A stretch of DNA of 64,000 bases from Novosphingobium decolorationis (GTDB taxonomy: Bacteria; Pseudomonadota; Alphaproteobacteria; Sphingomonadales; Sphingomonadaceae), in contig NZ_CP054856.1 of assembly GCF_018417475.1 (NCBI RefSeq), positions 682,001 to 746,000 of the forward strand. Reading direction: 5' to 3'. Below are positions 58,339 to 58,558 of the stretch, piece by piece. The stretch's first letter is position 1. Each line of letters begins with the position of its first letter. The notes below the pieces were generated by a model, which saw nothing but the letters and a program-made list of their open reading frames with translations, ran no database searches and was not told the DNA's origin. A program made the position numbers and the translations under genes.

Positions 58339-58558
58339 TAAAACCGTAATTAACTGTGGAAAGACGACCCTAATGATTCATCGGCGAGTCGCCGTCAAGC
58401 TGCGACTCGCCGGGAATCCTGATGATTCAAGGTATCATAAAACGGAACAAAACGAATCCGACACAGCATATGGAGTCTGGCGATTCGCGACCGACTCAAC
58501 ATCTTGTGCCGAGCACCCCGAGGACCTTCGCGAAATTTTTTTACGCCAGCCCGGAATC
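58339..58558 (-). promoter_or_regulatory. ccrM upstream region with clustered GANTC sites and a large inverted repeat
   Basis: Ten GANTC sites start at 58375, 58386, 58404, 58414, 58424, 58454, 58473, 58482, 58493 and 58554. An 11-bp inverted repeat, CGGCGAGTCGC (58382-58392) and GCGACTCGCCG (58402-58412), contains two of them. A CtrA-like TAAA-N7-TTAA (58339-58353; minus strand TTAA-N7-TTTA) lies close to the start codon. By chance about one GANTC is expected here. Confidence 0.7.

Follow-up and report, generated by a model that had tools for sequence, protein, structure and literature searches.

The ccrM gene of Novosphingobium decolorationis is preceded by a cluster of ten GANTC sites, two of which lie within its predicted core promoter. 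The gene probably senses the work of its own enzyme, since the layout is packed with GANTC, places two of the sites in the promoter and is kept in many relatives. The positions of the sites argue for methylation control of ccrM transcription, and the probability that the promoter is autoregulatory, its activity being gated by methylation of its own DNA, is put at roughly 0.5. The DNA analysed is a stretch of 64,000 nucleotides, referred to here as the window; GANTC sites and inverted repeats are given without strand.

Genes and loci compared

The ccrM gene occupies positions 57193..58326 of the minus strand, an open reading frame of 377 aa which encodes a GANTC adenine methyltransferase with Pfam matches to N6_N4_Mtase (PF01555, E=1.3e-66) and RAMA (E=2.3e-21). 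Within the titled collection, the CcrM proteins nearest to it, from Novosphingobium profundi EaN21-2 and Novosphingobium sp. BW1, are 99% identical, and its methylation target, judging from the family, would be GANTC. Upstream on the same strand lies rnhB (58590..59219), coding for ribonuclease HII (RNase_HII, PF01351, E=3.7e-38). The gap between the two genes measures 263 bp (58327-58589) and holds all ten GANTC sites.

The comparisons draw on 150 ccrM loci of the organism's own family (80 titled loci and sets of 30 and 40, the last hand-picked for genus spread), on 20 loci of f5, a second family in the same order, obtained from 28 genomes that had a match, and on class-wide counts for 86 of the 123 genomes matched. 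L081 is the locus of the own genome, and loci L001-L080 and the remaining loci may hold the same species twice. L068, L075 and L077, whose matches begin within the gene, were excluded from the alignment, and the 264-bp counts before these three and before L078 and L079 take in some coding sequence. L153 and L154, repeats of L115 and L113, were left uncounted, and L250 (158 bases) was excluded from the GcrA co-occurrence test.

The GANTC cluster and its distribution

The initial annotation had claimed ten GANTC sites upstream of ccrM, and all ten are where it placed them, with starts at 58375, 58386, 58404, 58414, 58424, 58454, 58473, 58482, 58493 and 58554. Base composition, computed on the closest relatives L001 and L002, predicts about 1.0 site per gap. 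GANTC is scarce in this genome: the window as a whole has a total of 91 against a shuffle mean of 316. Outside the gap, the 863,736 bases sampled from the own genome contain 968 sites, or 0.296 per 264 bp, a rate at which the Poisson probability of at least ten sites in 264 bp is about 1e-12. The claim of unusual density withstood a check against this sample (864 kb, about 18% of the genome), in which no 264 bp outside the ccrM gap holds more than five sites. The largest cluster in the flanks of ccrM from 80 relatives (519,328 bases) is of four.

The comparison across sphingomonads that the annotation had proposed also bears the cluster out: all 80 titled relatives carry 5-13 GANTC sites in the 264 bp that precede the match to CcrM. 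The further own-family loci hold 4-11 (30 loci) and 2-9 (40 loci) per 320 bp, the 20 f5 loci 5-9, and the two class-wide sets 0-8 each (27 and 59 loci). At least three sites are found in 30/30 and 38/40 of the own-family loci, in 20/20 of f5, and in 20/27 and 31/59 of the class-wide loci. From these counts per locus and the flank maximum of four, it follows that the cluster is general in the own family and f5 and patchy beyond. The shared array takes in nine of the ten window sites; the tenth (58554..58558) is not conserved, a similar site being present only in L003 and L007 among L001-L026.

A predicted core promoter with two GANTC sites

The predicted ccrM promoter has a -35 hexamer, TTGACG, at 58393..58398 of the minus strand, whose TTGAC serves as the anchor. 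With offsets counted from the first T of this anchor, a GANTC site in the spacer between -35 and -10 (58386..58390) starts at +8, and a second site (58375..58379) starts at +19 and shares one base with the -10 hexamer. The latter, CATTAG (58370..58375, minus strand), is placed by assuming a 17-bp spacer and is a weak match to TATAAT; with that spacer, its first base is the last base of the second GANTC. Across loci the layout reads TTGACG, GANTC, about six bases, GANTC and then A, the two core sites being 11 bp apart. Transcription would be expected to start at this promoter, as judged from sequence.

Loci were counted as anchored when TTGAC was accompanied by at least one of the two core sites, which holds for 138/150 loci in the own family, 20/20 in f5 and 53/87 class-wide; no core site follows TTGAC in 33/86 class-wide loci. 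Among the anchored loci, GANTC at +19 is present in 132/138 of the own family, 20/20 of f5 and 37/53 class-wide. The spacer site occurs in 115 of the 138 own-family loci, at +8 in 75 and at +9 in 40, and is therefore retained despite the shift between these positions. Both core sites are found in 69/80, 22/30 and 25/40 of the own-family sets, in 18/20 of f5, and in 15/27 and 21/59 of the class-wide sets. The paired-site pattern has no match on either strand in 864 kb of the own genome.

The -10 position is the more variable part, reading CACCCT in 71/138 own-family loci and CATGAT or CATAAT in 13/20 of f5. A generic TTGACA/TATAAT scan of the window did not report the ccrM promoter, and no conserved -10 of a second, upstream promoter was seen by eye. 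Run on the own genome, a promoter profile scored ccrM at E 5e-11; the only further match among the best 150 of 1508 candidates had E 0.45. Built from own-family loci and applied at E 0.05, the profile matched 17/58 class genomes, with its best match at ccrM in only 8/17 (own genome included) and elsewhere in 9/17; outside the own family, the evidence therefore lies in the pattern counts.

Register of the array

Upstream of the -35 hexamer, three sites (58404..58428) lie at -10, -20 and -30, offsets which recur in the own family, and a further site at -60 (58454..58458) falls inside a block, GGATTCGTTTTGTTCC, that is conserved in the alignments. The own-family offsets as a whole cluster at about -129, -100, -90, -80, -60, -30, -20, -10, +8/9 and +19; the own locus has -99, -88, -79, -60, -30, -20, -10, +8 and +19, and none at -129. 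Conservation is higher in the G, A, T and C columns of the nine sites (0.88) than elsewhere in the array (0.73; P 0.0015, 28 loci), and the middle N columns, at 0.80, show no difference from the other array columns in the same 28 loci (P 0.36). Individual middle bases are fixed or nearly so at -79/-80 (C) and -10 (G), and variable at -90, -60 and +8, as would be expected if some sites are methylation targets only and others form part of a protein site.

The regular spacing, though striking, does not follow the 10.5-bp helical repeat of relaxed DNA (R 0.03), and phasing at that period was rejected. A period of 9.75 bp suits the nine sites in the window (R 0.94), with P values of 0, 0.001 and 0.0015 in simulations that applied three different rules for the spacing; this period was picked post hoc, among loci that, within the own family, share descent. 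At 9.8 bp, P falls below 0.05 in 7/9 other own-family loci versus 1/12 loci outside the family. Palindromic flanks of GANTC were also discarded as a feature: they are found at 7/10 sites of the own locus, but their frequency across own-family arrays is 0.34 against a background of 0.32. The perfect 11-bp inverted repeat pointed out in the initial annotation (58382..58412; arms 58382-58392 and 58402-58412) is real in the window, yet it recurs in only 4/150 loci, namely the own genome and three relatives, and is therefore incidental.

An inverted-repeat element upstream

The alignment reveals a different inverted repeat, a 49-bp element at 58461..58509 with the structure CACnnnATnTnGAGTC-N15-GACTCnAnATnnnGTG, which carries a GANTC in each half and is a candidate protein operator. 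It lies within a conserved block extending from about -140 to -45, and the window match to the element model covers 58441-58535. A further GANTC sits between the halves at offset -88 (58482..58486); in relatives it is found at -89 to -91 and its middle base varies. A search that admitted gaps of 14-16 bp only found the GAGTC-GACTC pair in 118/150 own-family loci, which gave 105 distinct arm pairs, 101 with a gap of 15 and four with a gap of 14. A hairpin formed by the upstream arms was considered and rejected: arm complementarity is 0.602 within loci, not above the 0.616 between loci, and RNAalifold found no compensatory changes in the element. As the arms do not covary, a protein site is more likely than a hairpin, and a factor reading the element is predicted from its sequence conservation.

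The profiles R1 and R2 were built from 40 and 32 of 85 candidate loci, R2 being that of the element. In the own genome a single place matched, on both strands, among the best 150 of 532 candidates. In a search of one genome per genus, 54/59 genomes matched and five did not (R2 includes 8 of the 54 genomes that it later matched; judged by their handles, the 30 that matched among G395-G427 belong to other genera, although overlap with a named locus is possible). The best match adjoins ccrM in 54/54, at 76-225 bp from the start of the CcrM alignment. Second matches elsewhere number three and are weak (E 0.005, 0.007 and 0.09); up to 68 best candidates were scored per genome, and the element is single-copy among those. 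As a separate observation, loci L217, L221, L239 and L241 carry ACAAGATATTG or ACAAGATGTTG immediately ahead of the ccrM gap, in what appears to be the last part of rnhB, and by eye these sequences resemble the left arm of the sphingomonad element.

OxyR and Dam compete in this manner at agn43, which provides a model for what the element might do: a repressor or activator bound to it would compete with CcrM for the GANTC of the half-sites, such that occupancy and methylation exclude each other. We regard such competition as a tentative explanation and somewhat doubtful as the main one, although it could act on top of gating at the core promoter. It accords with the conserved letters of the half-sites, with arms that do not covary and with a best match beside ccrM in 54/54 genomes, and proteins which occlude GANTC from CcrM have been described (PMC5172544). 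On the other hand, it offers no candidate protein, it explains only two or three of the ten sites, and 5/59 genera have no element match.

Candidate regulators and RNA-level inputs

The initial annotation had named GcrA as a possible methylation-sensing factor. The gene is present in the own genome, with two PF07750 stretches over the cut-off in one 270-aa frame (L111/L112; G000:C1:2321394-2322038), and the 264 bp preceding this match are free of GANTC. The two further lines of evidence go against the proposal. The paired promoter occurs in 27/69 genomes with GcrA versus 9/17 without detectable GcrA (P 0.41), or in 26/68 versus 10/18 (P 0.28) when G246, with a GcrA match that falls short of the family cut-off, is moved to the latter group; the promoter pair is thus no rarer where GcrA is undetected, and co-occurrence does not support GcrA dependence. 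A permissive search of the 17 genomes gave nothing over the family cut-off, although a diverged GcrA could be missed. The extended GcrA motif of Caulobacter, YGAKTCK, is not enriched either: it makes up 0.22 of 1147 own-family array sites, and 0.31 of the 887 sites taken as background. GcrA stays a plausible candidate for the reader of the ccrM promoter.

Methylation can gate a promoter directly, as GATC methylation does at the IS10 transposase promoter. Here, methylation of the spacer site and of the -10 site might change the binding or melting of the promoter by RNA polymerase with no dedicated reader, for which the GANTC that shares a base with the -10 position and the presence of the paired promoter in those nine of 17 genomes both speak. 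We consider this account unlikely by itself: it leaves the upstream array and the dedicated inverted-repeat element unexplained, and the GcrA search on which it leans may miss diverged proteins.

The proposed CtrA-like pair next to the start codon is present in the window, with one mismatch to TTAA-N7-TTAA, but lacks conservation: when up to one mismatch was allowed in the last 70 bp before the start, only the window and L001 and L002 of the 80 relatives had it. CtrA control of ccrM was rejected for want of a conserved TTAA-N7-TTAA site. Separately, GTTAACC or its complement is found in 36/150 own-family ccrM upstream regions (e.g. L124, L140) versus about 6 expected at equal base frequencies, and is possibly a CtrA half-site.

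A DnaA-box-like sequence, TTTCCACAG, which is imperfect, lies near the predicted transcription start (58354..58362, minus strand). The perfect box TTATCCACA was found on either strand of 350 bp in 34/80, 22/30 and 14/40 own-family loci, and outside the family in 0/20 of f5 and in 3/27 and 4/59 class-wide loci. Within anchored own-family loci, 56/61 of these boxes start +20 to +60 from TTGAC. DnaA control of ccrM has been predicted mainly where ccrM lacks CtrA sites (PMC2877005), and the perfect boxes of the own family agree with that prediction.

The cluster lies directly downstream of rnhB and might have nothing to do with ccrM transcription, acting instead as a terminator for rnhB or as part of a small RNA, or having piled up by chance. 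This is highly improbable, as its location is outweighed by the rest of the evidence: no terminator-like site was found in the gap; the sole Rfam match at E <=1 is sub-threshold and inside rnhB; neither a covarying helix nor a U-tract terminator, as of a structured RNA leader or terminator, was found at the locus; and the conservation and promoter register point to ccrM.

GC skew of the sampled stretches (including L262-L301) suggests an origin near 2.75 Mb and a terminus near 0.4 Mb, with ccrM nearer the terminus. Despite this, terminus-proximal timing was dropped as support, because the position of ccrM is reported not to be conserved in Sphingomonadales (PMC8116508). Three side observations concern dnaA and its surroundings. 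The gene (G000:C1:4003379-4003855, at 4.00 Mb) lies far from the GC-skew origin, and dnaA is likewise reported not to be conserved close to the origin in Sphingomonadales (PMC8116508). The densest GANTC cluster of the own-genome sample outside the ccrM gap, the five in 264 bp in L298 from 5420 (G000:C1:4005420), is about 1.6 kb from the dnaA match. Apart from dnaA, contigs C1 and C2 of G000 hold 29 more matches to PF00308; many of these score identically, and they are probably copies of insertion-sequence ATPase genes.

Discussion

The initial annotation read the cluster as a methylation feedback element of ccrM. The core of that reading fits the conservation of the array, the two sites in the predicted core promoter and the element found beside ccrM in every matched genome; its hairpin and its CtrA site did not hold and its GcrA component was left weak. 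In the autoregulatory scheme that we favour, passage of the replication fork would leave the sites hemimethylated and let RNA polymerase, here probably together with GcrA, fire the promoter. CcrM would then remethylate the genome until the fully methylated array shuts the promoter again, and the large number of sites would make shut-off wait for near-complete remethylation. The least certain step is that full methylation closes rather than opens the promoter, a direction that would follow the published picture of Caulobacter, in which, according to a modelling paper, ccrM transcription requires hemimethylated DNA and ceases on methylation (PMC2217572).

The behaviour of GcrA bears on this direction. 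Its binding depends on methylation, and GcrA of Caulobacter, Brucella and Sinorhizobium prefers fully methylated probes (PMC3667746), which could mean activation instead of shut-off. GcrA with sigma-70 would then be most active on fully methylated sites, methylation would keep ccrM on, and the array would lock itself in the methylated state. Caulobacter ftsZ is reported to be most active when fully methylated (PMC8116508), and a study based on extended GANTC motifs, with 13 species from as many orders, predicts ccrM to be a core GcrA target across the Alphaproteobacteria, lost in Caulobacterales (PMC7987155). Such positive feedback is nonetheless doubtful: by simple reasoning, an unmethylated state could not recover; ccrM of Caulobacter is described as hemimethylation-dependent (PMC2217572); and the paired promoter is present where GcrA is undetected. 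We prefer the autoregulatory scheme in which hemimethylation opens the promoter and full methylation shuts it off.

The ccrM promoter of Caulobacter has two GANTC sites, located in the leader, whereas here there are ten, with two in the core promoter and a dedicated inverted-repeat element. Promoters gated by Dam, such as IS10 pIN and agn43, also have methylation sites in the promoter or operator that couple expression to methylation state; they differ in enzyme and site (Dam and GATC), are found in enterobacteria and do not drive the methylase's own gene. In common with the present locus, Caulobacter crescentus ccrM has GANTC in its promoter, with transcription described as confined to the hemimethylated state and methylation as the shut-off, yet it is activated by CtrA (PMC2217572), for which the window promoter has no conserved site. 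In another account it is 'most probably' regulated by methylation (PMC3973325). A GANTC between the -35 and -10 elements accompanies activation at 40-60 min in Caulobacter (PMC4287350). At P1 of Caulobacter ctrA, one such site, about 28-29 bp upstream of the start, goes with dependence on GcrA and replication (PMC4287350, PMC3667746), and GcrA covers -35 to +7 of this promoter when fully methylated (PMC3667746). That promoter differs in having one site and in driving another gene, hence closing no loop on the methylase.

Methylation control of ccrM and a link between GcrA and ccrM are already in print. The accessible part of the GcrA target prediction gives no promoter architecture (PMC7987155), unlike the register, array, element and DnaA box set out here, and the link that it predicts between GcrA and ccrM fails our co-occurrence test. 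In the searched literature, which is thin in subscription journals and was available in part, neither this promoter register nor the array or the element was found described.

A more specific version of the autoregulatory scheme, which we advance as speculative and at present hardly favoured, is that sphingomonads possess a methylation-completion sensor dedicated to ccrM. A lattice of GANTC sites at intervals of about ten bases and the 49-bp operator would be read by a factor, so that ccrM is turned off only once its own promoter has been fully remethylated, and the two-site core seen class-wide would represent a GcrA-independent ancestor.

The timing of CcrM in print is mostly that of Caulobacter. 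With the enzyme's own target sites inside the core elements of its promoter, feedback becomes directly testable in sphingomonads. The occurrence of the core promoter where GcrA is undetected would set methylation gating apart from GcrA, and the element, matched in 54/59 genera, predicts an undiscovered regulator of the cell-cycle methylase.
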